NCBI GenBank assembly: GCA_007131755.1
Contig: SLPW01000514.1
Span: 1 to 32,420, forward strand
Length of the DNA stretch: 32,420 nucleotides
Source of the DNA: Myxococcales bacterium
Lineage (GTDB): Bacteria; Myxococcota_A; Bradymonadia; Bradymonadales; Bradymonadaceae
Direction: 5' to 3'
The notes below the pieces were generated by a model. The model had not been told where the DNA came from. It made no database searches and was given only the letters and a program-made list of their open reading frames with translations. Made by a program: the position numbers and the translations under genes. Below, in pieces: positions 2 to 32,420 of this stretch; position 1 is the stretch's first letter; the number at the start of each line of letters is the position of its first letter.

Positions 2-3000
2 TCACATCGCCCGTCGATACTCCCCGCCCACCTCGTACAGGGTATGCGAGATCTGCCCCAGACTTGCGTATCGTACCGTATTCATCAATTCGGCGAAGAT
101 ATTTCCACCGGACAGAGCCACCTGTCGAAGGCGCTTCAGAGCTTCTTCGCTTTCATCGCGATGCTCCTCTTTGAACGCCGCCAGGTTGCGAAGCTGCGTT
201 TGCTTCTCCTCCTCTGTCGAACGGATGAGCTCCAACTCCTGTTCCTCCTCTTCTTCCTGCAGGTGTTCCGGAGCAAGGAAGGTGTTGACGCCGATGACCG
301 GGCGCTCTCCGGAGTGCTTCTTTCGCTCGTAGAGCATCGACTCTTCCTGAATCTTGCTCCGCTGGTACTGATTCTCCATCGCTCCCAGCACACCGCCGCG
401 CCGACTGATGCTCTCGAACTCCGACAAGACCGCCTCTTCCACCAGATCCGTGAGCTCCTCGACGATAAACGATCCCTGATGAGGATTTTCGTTCTTCGCC
501 AACCCGAACTCCCGATTGATGATGAGTTGAATGGCCATCGCCCGCCGAACGCTCTCTTCCGTGGGCGTCGTGATGGCCTCGTCGTAGGCGTTAGTGTGAA
601 GGCTATTGCAATGGTCAAAGAGCGCCAACAATGCCTGCAAGGTGGTCCGGATATCGTTGAACTGGATCTCTTGCGCGTGAAGCGACCGACCCGAGGTCTG
701 AATATGGTATTTCAACTTCTGAGATCGCCCGTTGGCGCCGTATTTTTCACGCATCGCCACCGACCAGATCCGCCGCGCCACTCGCCCCAGCACGGTATAC
801 TCCGGATCCATTCCGTTGGAGAAGAAATACGATAGATTCGGCGCAAACTCGTCGATATCCATCCCCCTCTTCAGATAGTACTCCACGTAGGTGAACCCGT
901 TGGCCAGGGTAAAGGCGAGCTGGCTTATCGGATTCGCCCCCGCCTCGGCGATATGATAGCCGCTGATGGAGACGGAATAATAATTTCGCACCTTCTTCTC
1001 GACGAAATACTCCTGAATATCCCCCATCATTTTCAGGGCGAACTCCGTGGAGAAGATGCACGTATTCTGCGCCTGATCCTCTTTGAGGATATCCGCCTGC
1101 ACCGTACCGCGGACCACGTGGAGTGTGTGATCGCGGATCTCGTCGAGCTCCTCCGGGTCGGGCGCCCGTCCCTGTTCGGCGCGAAATTTGTCCACCTGCT
1201 GATCGATGGCCGTATTGAGAAACATGGCCAGAATGATCGGCGCCGGACCGTTGATGGTCATGGACACGCTGGTATTGGAGGCGCAGAGATCGAATCCGTC
1301 GTATAGCCTCTTCATATCGTCCAGCGTACACACGCTGACCCCCGAATTTCCGACCTTTCCGTAGATATCTGGCCTCCGGTCCGGATCCTCACCATAGAGC
1401 GTCACCGAGTCGAAGGCCGTGCTCAGTCGATTCGCCGGCTCTCCTTCGCACAGGTAGTGAAAGCGCTTATTCGTACGCTCCGGCGTTCCCTCCCCGGCGA
1501 ACATCCGCTTTGGCTCCTCATCACGTCGTTTGAACGCAAATACACCGGCTGTATAGGGAAAGCGGCCAGGAACGTTCTCCAACAACTGCCAGCGCACCAC
1601 ATCTCCCCAGTCGCGAAATTTCGGCAACGCCACCCGGGGAATCTTCGTCCCCGACAGCGACGTCTTTCTCAGATCGAATTCGATCGTCTTATCGCGGATC
1701 TGCACCTCGAAGATGTCGCCGCTATAGTCCTCCTTCAATTGATCCCATCCCTCGAGAAGTTCTCTGGGCTCATCGTCCAACTCCGCCCACAACTGAGCCT
1801 GCTTTTCGGCGATGGCTTGCCCGTCGTCGACGAGCTCTTTAGCTCCCTCCAACTGATAGAGTTTCGAGGCCAGATCGGCCTGCTCCTCCACCCATCGGCG
1901 AAAATCACGACATGTCTCGGCCACCTCGGCCAGGTAGCGACTTCGCGAACCGGGAATGATCCTATGGGCCCGCTCCGTGACGGGACCGCTGGTCTCCCAT
2001 TTCGAATCCTCCATCCCCAGGCCCGTATCCTCCATCAATCGATGATATAGCGCCGTCACCCCCGTATCGTTGAACTGGCTGGCGATGGTCCCGAATACGG
2101 GCAATTCTTCGTCTTCGATATCGTAGCCAATCTGGTGATTGCGGCGCAGCTGTTTTCGCACCGCTCGCAGCGCATCTTCGCTGCCGAATTTCTCGAATTT
2201 GTTGATCACCACGAAATCTGCGTAATCGAGCATCCCGATCTTCTCGAGCTGACTGTGGGCACCGAACTCGCTGGTCATCACGTAGATGGACAGATCGGAG
2301 TGGTCGACGATATCTGCATCGCCCTGCCCGATGCCGCTGGTCTCCACGATCACCAGATCAAAGCCCGCACTCTTCACAATGGCGATCGCCTCGTCCAATG
2401 CCTGCGCCACCTCTCCCTTGCTCTGTCGCGTCGCCAATGAGCGCATATAGACGCGCTCGTCATTGATGGCGTTCATTCGAATTCGGTCCCCCAGAAGTGC
2501 TCCACCGCTCTTTCGCCGCGACGGATCGACACATAATAGGGCCACCTTTTTGTCCGAAAAATCCAACAGATATCGACGTATAATCTCGTCCGTAAGACTG
2601 CTCTTTCCCGCCCCTCCGGTTCCGGTGATCCCCACCACGGGAATCTGCTTCAACGAATCTGGAAGCTCCAACTCGTCGAAGCGCCCCATCTCGGCCATCG
2701 TGATCGCCCGCGCCAACGCCTCGGGCTCGCCACTTTGCACCGCCTCGGCCGTCACACTTCCCACCTCTTCCACCGGATCGAAATCGGTGCGCTCCAGCAT
2801 ATGGTTGATCATCCCCTGAAGCCCCATCTCCCGCCCGTCATCGGGGCTGAAGATCTTACCCACCCCGTACTTCTCCAACTCCTCGATCTCGTCGGCGACG
2901 ATCACCCCACCGCCACCTCCGAAAACCCGGATATGGCTCGCCCCTCGCTGCTCCAACAGGTCGATCATATATTTGAAATACTCGATATGACCGCCCTGAT

Positions 3001-3238
3001 AGCTCGACACGGCGATCCCCTGGGCGTCCTCCTCGATGGCGGCGTCGACGATCTCGGCCACAGAGCGATTGTGCCCAAGGTGCACCACCTCCGCTCCCGT
3101 GGCCTGCAGGATTCGGCGCATCACGTTGATCGCCGCATCATGGCCGTCGAACAGACTCGCCGCGGTGACGAAGCGTATCGGGTGCACTGGCGAATACTTC
3201 TCGGGCTTCTGGGATGCCGAGGGGGCGGTGGCACTCAT
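2..3238 (-). CDS. icmF: Fused isobutyryl-CoA mutase-type enzyme: N-terminal B12-binding domain, MeaB-like GTPase, C-terminal mutase
   Basis: Translation shows the B12-binding segment ([13 protein letters not shown]...[14 protein letters not shown]), P-loop [13 protein letters not shown], and the mutase motif [14 protein letters not shown]...[18 protein letters not shown] typical of IcmF rather than MCM. Stop codon at 2-4; preferred ATG at 3236-3238 (MSATAPS). Confidence 0.93.
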
Positions 3239-3357
3239 GGCTTCTCTCTCGTCTGGGGTAATCTGGGGGTGGACTCCGTATCTCAGCGGCCAATAAAGCA
3301 AAACGGCCCCGAACTCACAAGCATTTCGCCGGCAAATACCTCGGCGATCACGGGCAC

Positions 3358-14573: not shown

Positions 14574-17500
14574 ATGTCGTATCCGAGGGTGCGCTGCACC
14601 CATCACCTGTCGCTTCTCGTCGCCGGCACCATTGCCGCCACAATTTTCGGACTCGGTTGTGGCTCCAGCGATGTGGACCCCTTCGAAAACCAGGACATCA
14701 TCATCGACGATGTCGAGGGCTACGATGTCCCCGACGCAGGTGACGTGGATCCCTCCGATCCCGACACGGACATCCCCGACACGGACATCCCCGACACGGA
14801 CATCCCCGATACGGACATCCCCGACGTCGATCCGCCTGATCCGGACGATATCGTAGAATGCGACAACCCCCTTCCCGAACCGCCGGCCGGTGAGCGCTGC
14901 GTGGTTCTTCCCGGAACCAACGATCACCTCGTTTTTCAGGGAACCCTTCTCGTCGGTGACGAGATCTACGAAGAGGGTACGCTCATCGTCGACGATCAGG
15001 CGCCGAACCGCCGTATTGAGTGCGCGGGCTGTGATTGCGCCGATGATCCCATCGTCGACGAAGCGACCATCGTCTCCTGCCCCGACACGGTCATCTCGCC
15101 GGGTCTCATCAACCCTCACGACCACCTGACCTTCGCCCAGGGCTGGCCCCAGCCTCACGGTGATGAACGCTACGACCACCGCCACGACTGGCGTACCGGA
15201 GCCCGCGGCCACTCCAGAATTAATGTATCTCCTTCCGGTGGCAGCAATAACGCCGTCAGCAGTTATGGCGAACTGCGCATGCTCTTCGGAGGCGCTACGA
15301 GCATCGCTGGCTCTACGGCCGCCGCCGACGCCAGCGGCCTTTTGCGAAACCTCGACCAGCTTGACGAAACAGAAGGACTCGAGACCATCGACGTGCGCTA
15401 CAGCACCTTTCCCCTCGGTGACTCCGACGGAACCCTCCTCGCCGAGGGCTGCGCCTACGGAAATATCGACAGCGAATATGACGACGGCATCTACCTTCCC
15501 CACATCGCCGAGGGCATCGACGACGAGGCCAGAAACGAAATCCACTGCCTCGCCGGTGCCTCGGGACGAAATCTGATCCAAGACAACACCTCCATCATCC
15601 ACGGCATCGCCGTCAACGCCCGCGACGTGGCCATGATCGCCGATCGCGGCGCGACGCTCGTCTGGTCACCGCGCACCAATATCGATCTCTACGGCAACAC
15701 CGCACCGGTCCCTCTATATCACCGCTTCGGCGTCCCCATCGGCCTCGGCACCGATTGGTCCACCAGCGGTTCCATGAATATGCTCCGCGAGTTGGAGTGC
15801 GCCGACTATCTCAACCGCATGCACTTCAACAACACCTTTACGGACGCCGAATTGTGGAAGATGGCCACCTACTGGGCCGCCATCACCATGGGCGCCGACC
15901 ATAAGCTGGGCCTTCTGTACCCGAACTACGTCGCCGACATCACGATCTTCGACGACAGGGGCCGAACTCCCTATCGGGCCATCATCGACGCCGACATCGA
16001 CGAAATTGCCCTCGTCTTGCGTGGCGGAGAGCCCCTGTACGGTGACGCCCAACTCGTCGAGGACCTCGTCGGCGCCACGGACTCCGAACAATGCGAATTG
16101 GTCGACGTCTGCGATCGCGACCGCCGCGTTTGCGTGGAGCTCGATATCGGTGAGACCATCGCCGATCTGGAGGCGGCGATCCCCGAAGACTCCTACCCCC
16201 TCTTCTTCTGCGGTGATCCGGAAGACGAACCGACCTGTGTCCCATCGCGCCCCAGCGAATACGACGGCATCACCGGCTCCGACAGCTCCGGCGACGGCGT
16301 CCCGGACTCCGTCGACAACTGCCCCGACTACTTCAACCCCATCCGCCCCATGGACGGCGGGATTCAGTCCGATATCAACGGCAACGGCATCGGCGATGTC
16401 TGCGATCCCTGTCCGTTGAGCGAAGATCTGGACTGCACTCACATCGATCCCGGTGACTGGTCCGGGGACGGTGTGCCCAACGAAGAGGACAACTGCCCCT
16501 TTCACTACAACCCACTACAGGAAGACTCATCCGGCGACGGCGTCGGTGATGTATGTAGCCCCTGCCCGGACCGGGAGATCACGCCCGGTCGACCCTGCCC
16601 CTACGATATCTACGAGATCAAAAACGGTGATGTCGACGAAGGCACAGCCCTGGAGCTTCGCGACGTCCTGGTGACGGCCGTCAATGTCGGCGAGGGGCTC
16701 TTCGTTCAGGTCCATCCCGAAGAAGAGGGCTTTCAGGGCGTCGATCGCAGCGGCCTCTACGTCTATCTGCGTCACGACCTCGAGGATGAGGAATTCCCTC
16801 AGCCGGGCGACCGGATCAGTATCGTCGGCTCCGTCAGCGTCTTCTTCAGCCAGACCCAACTCGCAGACGTGTCGACCGTCGAAATTCTGTCCTCGGGCCA
16901 CGAACTCCCGGAGCCGGAGCTCGTCACCCCTGAAGAGGTGGAAAACGGTGGCTCTCGCCAGTGGGATCTTGAAGGAGTCCTCGTCGAAGTCCAGGACCTG
17001 ACCGTCACCGACGACGACCCCGGCCCGGGAGCCGGTCAGCAGGAATCTCCCGACGAATTCGTCGTCAACGACTCTCTCTACGTCAATAACTTCTTCTACA
17101 CCATCGATCCCAAACCCCAGGTAGGCGACACCTTTGAATCCATCACCGGTGTATTGCGCTGGGCCAATAGCAGAAGCCGCCTCGAGCCTCGTGGAGAGGA
17201 CGATATCGTCGACGGGCCCCCACAATTGGATCGCTTCGATCCCGACGTCGTCTACGCCGAGGTCTCGGCCTCCCCTATTCCCATGCTCAACCTCTACCTC
17301 GATCGACCCGCTGAGGAGCTCATCGACATTAGCCTCAACTCCAGCGACTCCGATATCGTCTTCGTCGAGGATGAAGTCTCCTTCCAGCCCGGCCAGGAGT
17401 CGATCTCGGTGGAGATTCAAGCCCTCCAGGCACAACAGACGCCGGTGATCATCGAGGCCTTCGATGGCGAGGTCACCGTCAGCGCCACCGTCTACACCTA

Positions 17501-22798: not shown

Positions 22799-23076
22799 AC
22801 CGAAAGCCCGCTATTCCCTGACACCACTTTTTATCGACACCCCGATTTTCCGGCACGGTAACTACAACTCCGAGCGGGCTTGATCGTTGTACCCCAGCCG
22901 GTATACTTCCACTCAATGCACTCTGGGCGCTTCGTATATATTTGTACGACCACGCGACCCATGTCGCCCGATGCCTTCCACATGGACACGTCACGGCAGC
23001 CATCATCGATTAGTGCTTGTCGGCTCGCCATAACTCGAATGGATCTGCGGGCTCACCCGCCGATGCGGAGGAACGA

Positions 23077-25083
23077 ATGATACCGAGAATCACCACCAAA
23101 TTTCTGGCGCTCATCGCCGCTGCTTCCATCGCCATGGCGATGGGATGTACCGATGACCCCGGCTCCTCGTCGGGTGAACGGCCCAATGAAGAAACGAACC
23201 AAACCCCGTCGGAGCCCATCGACGAAAATAGCTACCTGCTCTTTCACGGCGACCTCTGCAATCCCGCTGAGACCACCTGCGGGTTGTCTCCCTCCGTTGG
23301 GGAATCGCTTCGGTTGGAGGTCCAACTGCTGACCGGTGACGACGTCCCGATTCAGAACGCCCTCATCGATTTCCAGAAGGAGTCCATCCAGGACGCCAGC
23401 GAAGCCTCATTGAGCGCCAGCGCCGCCTACACCAACTCCAACGGCGTCGCCGACGTCGACCTCTATATGGGGGATAATCCCCAGGACGCCATCGGACAGC
23501 TCCATGTCACCGCCAGTGTCGCTGACGATGATGACGTCAATGAATTGGTCTTCAACGTCGGCATCACCCCCAAGGACGGTGCTTCCTACGTCATCCAATA
23601 CACCCACCAGGGACAAGCTACCCCAGACGAGGTACGCACCCGACTCTACGACCCGTCCCAGAGCTGCGAAGATGCCATCGATGACTTCTTCAACGGTGGC
23701 AACTGGCCCAGCGCCCAGATGATGCTTCCTCCCATCCAGGTCGCGCCTGACGGATCCATCCCCGACTCTCGGCCCCCCGTTCAGAACAACGAAGCCTATA
23801 CCGTACTTGCCATCGCCGAGCAGCATATCGGCAACGAGCGCGTCGAAGTCGCCTATGGCTGTAACGACGACGGTCAGCCCGTCGAACTCGGCGTCAACGT
23901 CTACGTCGACGTTCAGCTCACCGACCACGTGCCTCACTTCGAAGAGCGCTATGAGATGACCCACCACTTCGACCTGTCGGCCGCCATGCCCGAGTCTGTG
24001 CAAACGGTCATCAATATCGTGTCCACCCTGGCCGACAGCCCCGCACAATTCGTCCTGGGCTGTCCCCGCGACAGCAATGGAGACATCCAGGACCCCGAAA
24101 ATTGTAATACCGAGACCGGGCTCTTGGACCTTCTCTTCGAGTTGGACTTCCTCGACGGTGCCGACTGGCTCGATATGGTCGAAAACCTTCGCGACGGGCC
24201 TCTCTACTCTGCTGCCGAGCAATACCTCAACGATGCCATCGAAGAATATGTCCTGGGCAATATCCCCTCCTGGGCTGCCGACAGCATTCACATCGCAGGT
24301 GATGTTGCCGACATGCTCCAGTCCTTTACTGTACGAGGGCCCATATTCTTTGATGAGCAGCCCACCCCCGTCGTCATCGACGGCGTCACCATTGGCGAGT
24401 TCAACGGCGTCGCCCATCAGCGATGGGACGAAATCGTCTTCCAATTCAGCCTCGGCTGTGAGGACTCCTCCGATCCGGAGGCCTGCGCCGAGACCGTCGT
24501 CAGCGCTGGCGACCTGGGAACCAGCAATATCATCGTCGGTGAATTTGACGCCGTCGTTCACGGCACACAATATATCGAGATCGATCGCCACCACCTCACT
24601 CTTCACTACGGCGCGCTCATCATCGGTGCCATCGAACAGGTGGTCCTGCCCCGGCTCTTCGACGACCCCACCGTCAACTCCCTGGAGGCCATGATCGGAC
24701 AGCTCATCAATTGTGAGAATCTGGCCGAAACCGTTGAAAATTGGAGCTCCCTTGGTGAGACCCTCGCCCCGACCGTCGAGGACGTATGCAACGACATGAT
24801 TGAGAACGCCGCCGATGCCGTCTACGACTACGTCACGGACGCTCTCGTCGTAGGCGACTCCGATCAATTCGTCCTCAGCACCCCTCTCGACGAGCCCTGC
24901 AATATTCAGCAGCCCGCCACCTACTCCTCGAGCGGATGGCCCGGACAGCCCCTTCCCTACATCGAGTCCATCGGACACGATGACGATGAGGGTAGCTGCA
25001 CCTGGCATACCGAGATCGACTACAACGGAGACGGGACCGTCAACTTCGAAATCCCCGGCCAATTCTACGGCAATCTTCACTGA
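23077..25083 (+). CDS. Hypothetical secreted lipoprotein
   Basis: GGAGGA SD 4 nt before the ATG (MIPRITTKF); signal peptide with lipobox AMAMGC; unknown fold. Confidence 0.85.
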   Translation: MIPRITTKFLALIAAASIAMAMGCTDDPGSSSGERPNEETNQTPSEPIDENSYLLFHGDLCNPAETTCGLSPSVGESLRLEVQLLTGDDVPIQNALIDFQKESIQDASEASLSASAAYTNSNGVADVDLYMGDNPQDAIGQLHVTASVADDDDVNELVFNVGITPKDGASYVIQYTHQGQATPDEVRTRLYDPSQSCEDAIDDFFNGGNWPSAQMMLPPIQVAPDGSIPDSRPPVQNNEAYTVLAIAEQHIGNERVEVAYGCNDDGQPVELGVNVYVDVQLTDHVPHFEERYEMTHHFDLSAAMPESVQTVINIVSTLADSPAQFVLGCPRDSNGDIQDPENCNTETGLLDLLFELDFLDGADWLDMVENLRDGPLYSAAEQYLNDAIEEYVLGNIPSWAADSIHIAGDVADMLQSFTVRGPIFFDEQPTPVVIDGVTIGEFNGVAHQRWDEIVFQFSLGCEDSSDPEACAETVVSAGDLGTSNIIVGEFDAVVHGTQYIEIDRHHLTLHYGALIIGAIEQVVLPRLFDDPTVNSLEAMIGQLINCENLAETVENWSSLGETLAPTVEDVCNDMIENAADAVYDYVTDALVVGDSDQFVLSTPLDEPCNIQQPATYSSSGWPGQPLPYIESIGHDDDEGSCTWHTEIDYNGDGTVNFEIPGQFYGNLH

Positions 25084-25099: not shown

Positions 25100-25133
25100 A
25101 AAGCCCCGGACGACTGAGTGCGTCCGGGGCTTT
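25100..25133. terminator. Bidirectional rho-independent terminator between convergent genes
   Basis: aaagccccggacg-actgagtg-cgtccggggcttttt: perfect 13-bp stem with T run on + and A run (T on -) at the other side. Confidence 0.92.
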
Positions 25134-25164: not shown

Positions 25165-25380
25165 CTACTGGGGTTGGCCTTTCACCTCGATCCCCATATT
25201 CTTGCAGGTAAATAGAAAGACCTCCATCTCCACATCCGTGAAGTACTCATTGGGCAGCGCCTCGTTGATCTCCTCCCAGCTCAACTCTCCCTTTTCTCGG
25301 CCACGCTTCAACAACTCCCTCTTATTTGCGTGATAAGCCGTCTTCTCTGGCTTCGGTTCAAACTCCGGTCTCTCTTCCAT
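25165..25380 (-). CDS. 71-aa stand-alone sigma-70 region 1.1-like protein
   Basis: MEERPEFEPKPEKTAYHANKRELLKRGREKGELSWEEINEALPNEYFTDVEMEVFLFTCKNMGIEVKGQPQ resembles RpoD region 1.1 (G.L.YEEIN..LP...D....I...L..MGI.V); strong GGAGG SD 5 nt upstream of the ATG. Confidence 0.8.
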   Translation of the reverse strand: MEERPEFEPKPEKTAYHANKRELLKRGREKGELSWEEINEALPNEYFTDVEMEVFLFTCKNMGIEVKGQPQ

Positions 25381-25454
25381 CGACTCCTCCTGAACACCGA
25401 TCGAGTGCCATCTCTCGCCTGCTTTCGGCAAATATAATCACCGTCATCCAGGCC

Positions 25455-26702
25455 TCAATCCGCATCATAGGTTCGAAGTTCCCAAGCCCTCATCCCGCAC
25501 GCCTCCAACACCTCGCCAAGGAGAAAAATCGAACCGAACGCCAGAATCGTTCCCTTCGAACTGCTCATTGCCTCCTCGAAGGCTTCTGCGGTGGGCCTGG
25601 CCCCCTGCCACAACGCAGGCGGTACGTGGTTTCGTAACTCCACTTCGCTGCGTACCCGTTCGTTCTCCACCATCGCTCCCCACACGGGCGCACCCACTTC
25701 GCTGAGAAAATCCTTCGTTTGCCCCGGGTCTTTGTCTTTCATCGCGGTCCACAACACAGCCGAGACTTCGTCTGCCCGATGGGACCAGGCTTTTCTCAAG
25801 GCCGCGACGCCTGCCGGGTTGTGAGCCGCGTCGAGCAACAAACGTCGAGCCCCGTCATCCAATGACACCTGATCGAAACGCCCGGGCCAACGCCAGCACG
25901 CAAGACCGGTGTCCACCGCGTCACGTCGCCATCGATCCCCGAGATACCTTCGAGCCACGCCCATCGCTGTGCGACGGTGGCGCGTCTGGATCTTCCCCGA
26001 CTCGTCGCTCACATTCTCCCCGCCATCGCTCACCTCATCGACGGGTGTCCCCACCGCCTTCGCCGCTTCCACCAGGGCATCACGGGCACCCACCACTTCC
26101 TGTGCGCCGATGACGGCGGGAATGTCCTCGCGAAAGATCCCCGCCTTCTCCCTGGCTATATCACCGATCTCAGTACCCAGATGCTGGGTATGATCGAACC
26201 CGATTGTCGTCACCGCTGTGACCACCGGATCGAGAGCGTTTACCGCGTCCAACCTTCCCCCAAGCCCCACTTCGAAGACGGCGACGTCCACCCTTTTTTG
26301 GTTGAAGAGCACTGCTGCCGCAAGCGTCGTGAGTTCGAAGAAGGTCAGCCCCGTTACAGCACCACTTTCATCCTCGCTGCGTCCGTGTTGCTCGAGCAGT
26401 CGCTCCAGCACCGGCCCCACTTCTCTTCGCGACAGCGGAACCCCGTCGACCCGAAGCCGCTCCGTCACGTCGATGAGATGAGGGCTGGTATACAACCCCA
26501 CCCGCAACCCGTGCGCCTGCAGTATCGCCGCCACCATCGACGCAACCGTTCCCTTTCCATTGGTACCGGCGACCGTGATAACACCGTAGCACCGATCTGG
26601 ATGACCCTCCGCCTTCAACGCCACCTGCATTGGCCCCAATCCCGGATCGATCCCGAAGCGGCGCAATCCGTACAACTTCGCCACCAACGCGTCCCACTTC
26701 AT
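25455..26702 (-). CDS. folC: Folylpolyglutamate synthase / dihydrofolate synthase
   Basis: VITVAGTNGKGTVASMVAAIL, YTSPHL, EVGLGGRLDAVN, ALDPVVTAVTTIGFDHTQHLG, DAAHNPAG motifs. Confidence 0.93.
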   Translation of the reverse strand: MKWDALVAKLYGLRRFGIDPGLGPMQVALKAEGHPDRCYGVITVAGTNGKGTVASMVAAILQAHGLRVGLYTSPHLIDVTERLRVDGVPLSRREVGPVLERLLEQHGRSEDESGAVTGLTFFELTTLAAAVLFNQKRVDVAVFEVGLGGRLDAVNALDPVVTAVTTIGFDHTQHLGTEIGDIAREKAGIFREDIPAVIGAQEVVGARDALVEAAKAVGTPVDEVSDGGENVSDESGKIQTRHRRTAMGVARRYLGDRWRRDAVDTGLACWRWPGRFDQVSLDDGARRLLLDAAHNPAGVAALRKAWSHRADEVSAVLWTAMKDKDPGQTKDFLSEVGAPVWGAMVENERVRSEVELRNHVPPALWQGARPTAEAFEEAMSSSKGTILAFGSIFLLGEVLEACGMRAWELRTYDAD

Positions 26703-27055: not shown

Positions 27056-27682
27056 CTAGAAGGAAAACCGGTCCTGCAATTCCAGATAGCGCAGATACCG
27101 ATCGTAGGCGTCGGGATCGACGATCTCGAAATAGCCCCGGCGATCGATGTGGATCAACTCCCCTTTGACCAATTCACCCAACACCTTCTTGACCTCACCG
27201 ACCTCCATGGCCAGTGCGTCGGCCAGATTATCCGGAATCGGTGTCGCCGTGTTGACGTCGCCGCCATTGCGCTGCTCCGCTTCCGCCTTCAATTGATGCA
27301 ACAGGCGGGCTGTATTGGAGCGCAAGATCAGATTGCTGACTCGATATTGAGCCTGCGTCAAGCGCTGGGTCAGCTTCTTGAGCATTCGCAGCGCAATATC
27401 GCTATTGCCCCGGATCATATCCTCGAATTGATCGGTCTGAACCTGGATGACGTTTGCATCCTCGATCACCACTGCCGTCACGGGACGTTTCGACGATCCC
27501 AGCATCGCCAATTCGCCGCAGAATTCGCCCGCGCCCAGATCTTCGACCTCCATCTCGGAATCGTGAATCCTCTTCGACAGCCGAACACGACCGGACTTGA
27601 TGACGTACATCCGATCGCCCTCTTCGCCTTCACGAAACAATACCGTCCCTGCGGAACACTCTTGTACGCCTTTGTCAGCCAC
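27056..27682 (-). CDS. Crp/Fnr-family cyclic-nucleotide-binding transcriptional regulator
   Basis: cNMP-binding beta-roll (GTVLFREGEEGDRMYVIKSGRVRLSK...LGAGEFCGELAML) plus C-terminal winged-HTH-like segment (IPDNLADALAMEVGEVKKVLGELVKGELI); GTG start. Confidence 0.85.
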   Translation of the reverse strand: MADKGVQECSAGTVLFREGEEGDRMYVIKSGRVRLSKRIHDSEMEVEDLGAGEFCGELAMLGSSKRPVTAVVIEDANVIQVQTDQFEDMIRGNSDIALRMLKKLTQRLTQAQYRVSNLILRSNTARLLHQLKAEAEQRNGGDVNTATPIPDNLADALAMEVGEVKKVLGELVKGELIHIDRRGYFEIVDPDAYDRYLRYLELQDRFSF

Positions 27683-31321: not shown

Positions 31322-31567
31322 CCCTCCATCGAAGAATATTTCGGCTTTGATACTCTCCCCTTTCACAAGGCCATCGACGACGACGAATTGTGGCTTCCGG
31401 AATCGAAGCGACAGATCGTCGACGCCATCTGTCGCGTCGTCGAACGTCGCCAGAACCTGGTGTTGACCGGCGAGCCCGGCGCCGGAATGACCTGCGTACT
31501 TCGCGCCGTGCGCCATCACCAAACCGCCGTCATCCCCTGCCGCGTTTCAGCCTTCCTTCCGAGCTAG
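31322..31567 (+). pseudogene. Truncated ExeA/TniB-like AAA ATPase with mutated Walker A
   Basis: MPPSIEEYFGFDTLPFHKAIDDDELWLPESKRQIVDAICRVVERRQNLVLTGEPGAGMTCVLRAV; Lys of GxxGxGKT replaced by Met (31487-31489); ORF stops in a tandem-repeat array. Confidence 0.65.
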
Positions 31568-31690
31568 CCGCATCGCAATCACCGCAAACCGCCGTCATCC
31601 CCTGCCGCGTTTCAGCCTCCCTTCCGAGCTAGACGCATCGCAATCACCGAAAGCCGCCGTCATCCCCTGCCGCGTTTCAGCGTCCCTTCC
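31512..31690. repeat. Tandem repeat A, period 65 bp, about 3 copies
   Basis: gccgtcatcccctgccgcgtttcag starts at 31526, 31591 and 31656. Confidence 0.92.
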
Positions 31691-31707
31691 GCAGCACTCT
31701 TCAGAGT

Positions 31708-31840
31708 CCAGCGTCCAGCGTGCAGCGTCCAGCCCTCCGCGAATCCTGGTCCCGCGCTCCGCGTCCAGCGTGCAGCGTGCAGCCCTCCGCGAATCCTGGT
31801 CCCGCGCTCCGCGTCCAGCGTCCAGCGCTCCGCGTCCAGC
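31708..31840. repeat. Tandem repeat B, period 50 bp, about 2.6 copies, with internal CCAGCGT/GCAGCGT heptamers
   Basis: gcgtccagcgtgcagcgt[c/g]cagccctccgcgaatcctggtcccgcgctcc at 31711-31760 and 31761-31810, partial copy from 31811. Confidence 0.92.
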
Positions 31841-31847
31841 GTCGAGC

Positions 31848-32420
31848 TCAATAACTCGACAGATCGAAGACATGGGTTGTACGCTGTCGCGTAGACACGG
31901 GCTCACAATTGCGCGTCGCCGGCTCGAAGCGCCATCGCCAAAAGACAGCCTCTGCTGCCTCGTTGAGCCCGTCCCCGGGTCCGTCGACGATTCGCACGTC
32001 CGTCACATTGCCCTCCTCGTCGATCTGCAGCAGTCCCACTACGGCACCTTCCGTACCTCTTCGGCGGGCTTGAACGGGATATTCCGCGTTGGGAGAGTGG
32101 ATGACCTTGGCCTCCGTTGGCGGACAGTCTCGGCCTTCCCCGGAATCGATCTCTCGAGGGGGTTCACGGTCCTCGCGAGTGACGATGCCATCGCCATCTC
32201 CCTCTCTATCCGACTGTGCTGCGCGGGATCTGGACTCCTCCTCCGGGGAGGCTCGATCGACCTCGGAAACTCTCAACACCTCCGGCTCTGATTCTGGCTC
32301 GGGATCAGGATCGGGCTCCGGTTCGGGCTCCGGTTCGGGCTCCGGCTCCGGCTCCGGCTCCGGTTCGGGCTCTGGCTCCGGTTCGGGTTCGGGCTCTGGT
32401 TCGGGCTCTGGTTCGGGCTC
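31848..32420 (-). CDS. TonB-like C-terminal domain protein with (Glu-Pro)n spacer, 5' truncated by the window end
   Basis: Frame stays open to the window edge as EPEPEP...; C-terminus [56 protein letters not shown] is TonB-like. Confidence 0.85.
32283..32420. repeat. Hexanucleotide-type repeat encoding Glu-Pro (some Asp-Pro) dipeptides
   Basis: ggctccggttcg-type units continuous to the window end, in frame with the TonB-like gene. Confidence 0.9.

Follow-up and report, generated by a model that had tools for sequence, protein, structure and literature searches.

A conserved free-standing sigma-70 region 1.1 protein encoded downstream of folC

We describe here a 71-residue protein, encoded within a stretch of 32,420 nucleotides (the window, meaning the whole of the DNA analysed), which carries sigma-70 region 1.1 as an independent polypeptide. 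Region 1.1 has been studied as an in-cis gate, coming and going with the sigma factor to which it is attached. The small protein is a free-standing and evolutionarily old derivative of this folded domain, which is itself known but appears here in a new architecture. Profile, fold, orthologue and selection analyses leave us virtually certain that region 1.1 stands free here, as a protein that is conserved and under selection. As to function, our best reading from the sequence is that of a putative RNA polymerase (RNAP) modulator acting in trans, to which we would give about an even chance.

The small gene starts with ATG at 25380 and ends with TAG at 25167-25165, on the minus strand according to its open reading frame; the earlier note had left the strand unstated. 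Its translation is MEERPEFEPKPEKTAYHANKRELLKRGREKGELSWEEINEALPNEYFTDVEMEVFLFTCKNMGIEVKGQPQ. The Shine-Dalgarno sequence, called strong in that note, is a good one, and a GGAG-type motif precedes most of the orthologous starts in the loci compared. The position just after folC also held up: folC lies upstream on the same strand, across a gap of 74 bp. The promoter-like match in this interval is weak, with one match observed against 0.6 expected by chance, and it gives no evidence of function. Beyond the stop codon, a G+C-rich hairpin common to the small gene and the convergent lipoprotein gene is likely to be a bidirectional terminator for both, the plus strand offering the better T-tract. Of the shared terminator proposed earlier, the shared hairpin and its folding score stand; a simple terminator scan did not report it. 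The convergent gene encodes a 688-aa putative lipoprotein which has no Pfam match and adjoins the small gene in most relatives. Coordinates are collected in Table 1.

Table 1. The small gene and the features flanking it, with positions in the window
Feature	Positions	Strand	Basis
Stand-alone sigma-70 region 1.1 protein, 71 aa	25165..25380 (stop included)	-	ORF, PF03979, orthologues, dN/dS, fold
Shine-Dalgarno AGGAGGAG	25384..25391	-	Sequence; 3 nt 5' of ATG
Promoter-like TTGAGG-16-TATATT, folC/small-gene interval	25431..25458	-	Weak
G+C-rich hairpin 3' of stop, common to convergent lipoprotein gene	25102..25131	.	Fold z=-4.5
folC, folylpolyglutamate synthase-like Mur ligase	25455..26702	-	Mur_ligase_M, synteny
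cNMP-binding (Crp/Fnr-type) regulator, conserved 5' neighbour of folC	27056..27682	-	Synteny
688-aa putative lipoprotein, convergent, conserved neighbour on the other side	23017..25083	+	Synteny

Elsewhere in the window, a long open reading frame on the minus strand (2-3301) resembles a fused isobutyryl-CoA mutase with B12-binding, G-protein chaperone and mutase domains. A 15-bp tandem repeat of 4.4 copies (14760-14825) encodes DTDIP repeats close to the N-terminal end of a putative lipoprotein of 1578 aa. Further tandem repeats, with a 65-bp unit (2.6 copies), with a 50-bp unit (2.3 copies) and as a TCGGGCTCCGGT-type array which reaches the window end, lie at 31520-31847 and 32280-32420.

The identity of the small protein is carried by profile homology. 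PF03979 (Sigma70_r1_1) matches residues 18-68 with E=1.3e-9 and 38.3 bits, against a curated cut-off of 22.5 bits, and is the sole Pfam family to match; the same holds for the aligned orthologues, 21/21 of which match PF03979 (E<=0.01) and no other Pfam family. The resemblance to RpoD region 1.1 noticed earlier is thereby confirmed by the HMM comparison that the earlier note had recommended, as is the lack of sigma regions 2-4: the 71 residues hold nothing beyond region 1.1, and the regions 1.2, 2, 3 and 4 that a group 1 (primary) sigma factor has in one polypeptide are absent. The top NCBIfam matches are RpoD models, covered at their N-terminus only, and RpoD chains rank first when solved structures are searched with phmmer. 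A profile built from the stand-alone proteins gave significant matches to solved structures that were all region 1.1 of RpoD or SigA, and in 284 genomes it recovered 24 stand-alone proteins followed by almost only RpoD-length frames.

Structure prediction, likewise recommended, agrees with the profile. The AlphaFold model, built with seven orthologues, has a pLDDT of 77.9, helices at residues 15-30, 35-41 and 49-61 and a strand at 65-67. Its best Foldseek matches are SigA (9a58) and 5mww, the isolated domain 1.1 of B. subtilis SigA (for 5mww, probability 1.00 and 1.7 A across 50 columns); lower in the list come several E. coli sigma-70 chains. At 71 residues the chain is so short that the Foldseek E-values are weak (0.05-0.3), and the claim of homology therefore rests on the HMM; profile score and fold both place the protein in region 1.1.

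A search for homologous small proteins found orthologues in 24/57 genomes of the class, the named relatives being metagenome assemblies labelled Myxococcales, in a class which we take to be Bradymonadia. The protein occurs in 19/21 genomes of the family, in 4/5 genomes of a sister family of the same order and in one genome of a further family, and it was not recognised in the remaining four families of the class. The fifth sister-family genome is 65% complete, and folC was likewise not found in it. Two orthologues (G018, G031) have no start codon at the expected site, so that their N-termini are unsure. Genus g2 (G005, G016) is without the small gene; in G016 folC is intact and a convergent gene comes directly after it, leaving no small gene in the interval, and from the folC loci examined the gene was lost in this genus.

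In 21/24 genomes folC lies upstream on the same strand at a gap of 1-120 bp, and the orthologue loci widely share the convergent lipoprotein and, 5' of folC, the Crp-type regulator. The linkage to folC would suit a protein serving folate or envelope metabolism alongside the neighbouring folC and lipoprotein. Such a role is very unlikely in our estimation: the small protein persists in G008 with folC on the other strand, as it does in G023 and G025, where the stretch examined does not include folC, and we know of no folate role for a sigma domain. No telling co-inherited partner gene was found, and the small gene gave no PADLOC hit as a defence gene.

Beyond the class, no other stand-alone region 1.1 copy was recognised above threshold in the phylum sample (284-379 genomes), a result that rests on the stand-alone profile (284 genomes) and on a check of second matches, rather than on the PF03979 matches listed over 379 genomes. 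Where other genomes of the phylum have a second PF03979 match, it lies in each case in a frame of at least 441 aa and thus in a full sigma factor. A phage or plasmid origin was rejected: no stand-alone region 1.1 was found in phage, plasmid and viral-contig collections, the annotated matches there were sigma factors or RpoD, and of the unannotated plasmid matches the five that were opened all proved to be long frames, of which four are clearly RpoD. Parapedobacter and Sphingobacterium loci returned by the genome scan were discarded as false matches within one conserved protein of ~650 residues, presumably ribosomal protein S1-like.

The small protein is under strong purifying selection. Among three species of one genus, dN/dS is about 0.01-0.03 (dN 0.006-0.018, dS 0.60-0.77); for the genus to which the window belongs, dS approaches or exceeds saturation, with most changes at third codon positions. 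Together with the 24 orthologues, this ratio makes the gene real beyond chance, as had been argued from its context. When 24 stand-alone proteins and 30 RpoD 1.1 domains are placed in one tree, a single branch divides the two sets with a support of 100/100, and the stand-alone proteins form one clade, separate from every RpoD region 1.1 in the sample. As the alignment has 71 columns, too few to settle the inner order, and long branches meet, the tree speaks for one separate old family and not for the point at which it budded off.

These results bear on the reading, raised earlier as a potential refutation, that the gene is a functionless decaying fragment of a duplicated rpoD, absent in relatives. 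The domain is clearly derived from region 1.1, and the gene was lost in genus g2, as a decaying fragment might be. The selection analysis has already contradicted this reading, since a dN/dS of that order, 24 intact orthologues over three families and motif-level conservation rule out a remnant, and the host RpoD is itself intact with its own region 1.1; we regard decay as extremely improbable.

The earlier note had also asked whether the host rpoD keeps its region 1.1. The same genome encodes a separate full-length RpoD in a 636-aa frame, with its own region 1.1 at 75.4 bits, which disposes of the small protein as a stand-in for a region 1.1 missing from RpoD. A group-2 sigma factor with region 1.2 and without region 1.1 is conserved in the family (L093 (G000:C524), L095, L096, L097). 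In four family genomes that carry the small protein, this second region-1.2 sigma has an N-terminal part of 54-72 residues ahead of region 1.2 and no PF03979 match, and the small protein might be imagined to provide it with region 1.1 in trans. We give this supply little likelihood, since most class genomes without the small protein still carry at least two region-1.2 sigmas, and G005, which also lacks the small protein, still shows a second region-1.2 match at a contig edge. A partnership with the group-2 sigma was accordingly set aside as a co-occurrence that is unspecific across the class.

The earlier note had described the protein as acidic and a potential DNA mimic, and the comparison with RpoD does not support either point. 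The folded core is near neutral: averaged from individual values, and with slightly different domain limits in the two sets, its net charge has a mean of about -2 in the stand-alone proteins vs about -7 in RpoD 1.1 of related genomes. Acidic positions of RpoD 1.1 have become basic, neutral or hydrophobic (D25>K/R, D54>V, E61>N, D68>G), and V20, K22, M57 and L58 of RpoD are replaced by K, E, F and T, giving the stand-alone proteins a conserved signature of K20, E22, E51, V54, F57 and T58. The residues of the fold core, L23, G27, G31, L33, L42, P43 and I64, are common to both. An acidic N-terminal tail, down to -9, is kept by a minority of members, and the whole-protein charge is still negative in most. 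The fold was thus retained and the surface remade, a pattern that speaks for a new interface and, the acidic tails of some members notwithstanding, against a plain acidic mimic of DNA.

A mimic acting in trans would fill the RNAP main channel or cover the DNA-binding surface of sigma, the part that RpoD 1.1 plays in cis, and would so compete with RpoD 1.1. It would be expected to have a strongly acidic folded domain and the linker joining region 1.1 to region 1.2; the small protein has the same domain and fold as RpoD 1.1, but its core charge and the four exchanged acidic positions speak against this mode of action, the linker is missing, and we consider it rather improbable. The same exchanges could suggest a small protein that has no connection with RNAP and binds nucleic acid or dimerises, with an interface formed by a basic helix 1 (KRELLKRGREK) and extra hydrophobics on helix 3. 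Helix 1 is indeed basic or neutral, and V54, F57 and T58 are conserved where RpoD has D54, M57 and L58. We nevertheless think this unlikely, since the protein overall is negative in most members and its invariant residues largely coincide with those of region 1.1.

For the reading that we prefer, a putative RNAP modulator, the small protein would bind RNAP, as core or holoenzyme, as a separate polypeptide. It is predicted to use a surface other than the acidic one of RpoD 1.1, or to make altered contacts, and in trans it may modulate promoter-complex formation or sigma exchange. Region 1.1 in cis inhibits DNA binding by free sigma and occupies the cleft (PMC4496709), and on its removal basal transcription rises about 32-fold at some promoters (PMC6970531); a free copy could therefore plausibly matter. 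In the open literature, outside which most subscription journals lie, we found no description of a stand-alone region 1.1 protein or of sigma work in Bradymonads. If a modulating role is true, an in-cis gate can turn into a separate trans-acting regulator beside an intact RpoD 1.1, and nature provides a small tool for probing region 1.1 apart from sigma. The protein also gives a concrete case on which to test how region 1.1 governs the formation of open complexes, a question of long standing.

The closest known system is region 1.1 of RpoD and SigA (PF03979), to which the small protein is linked by profile homology, ungapped over residues 18-68, and by the same predicted fold; it differs in having no sigma regions 1.2-4 and no linker, and in a core that is far less acidic. 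Other small RNAP binders exert their effect partly via sigma 1.1, namely TraR/DksA (PMC6970531 for TraR) and T7 Gp2 (PMC3778932 and Bae 2013 as cited). Their sites on RNAP are the secondary channel for TraR/DksA and the beta' jaw for Gp2. Neither is a piece of sigma, and both are unrelated to the small protein by family and fold searches.

The Firmicutes delta subunit (RpoE) is alike in fold and logic only: its N-terminal domain has a similar fold, and delta is a separate RNAP subunit. Delta was not recovered by the stand-alone profile among solved structures, nor was it among the 50 listed Foldseek matches. The small protein belongs to a different phylum and ends at residue 71, with no counterpart of delta's C-terminal region, a long disordered and acidic stretch that enters the main channel; by sequence homology and by this region, it is not an RNAP delta subunit. 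By analogy, the small protein may be a lineage-specific accessory RNAP subunit, an old region 1.1 duplicate which works beside an intact RpoD 1.1 as an independent counterpart of delta, a possibility that we place somewhat short of an even chance. If true, it suggests that a delta-like solution arose outside Firmicutes.
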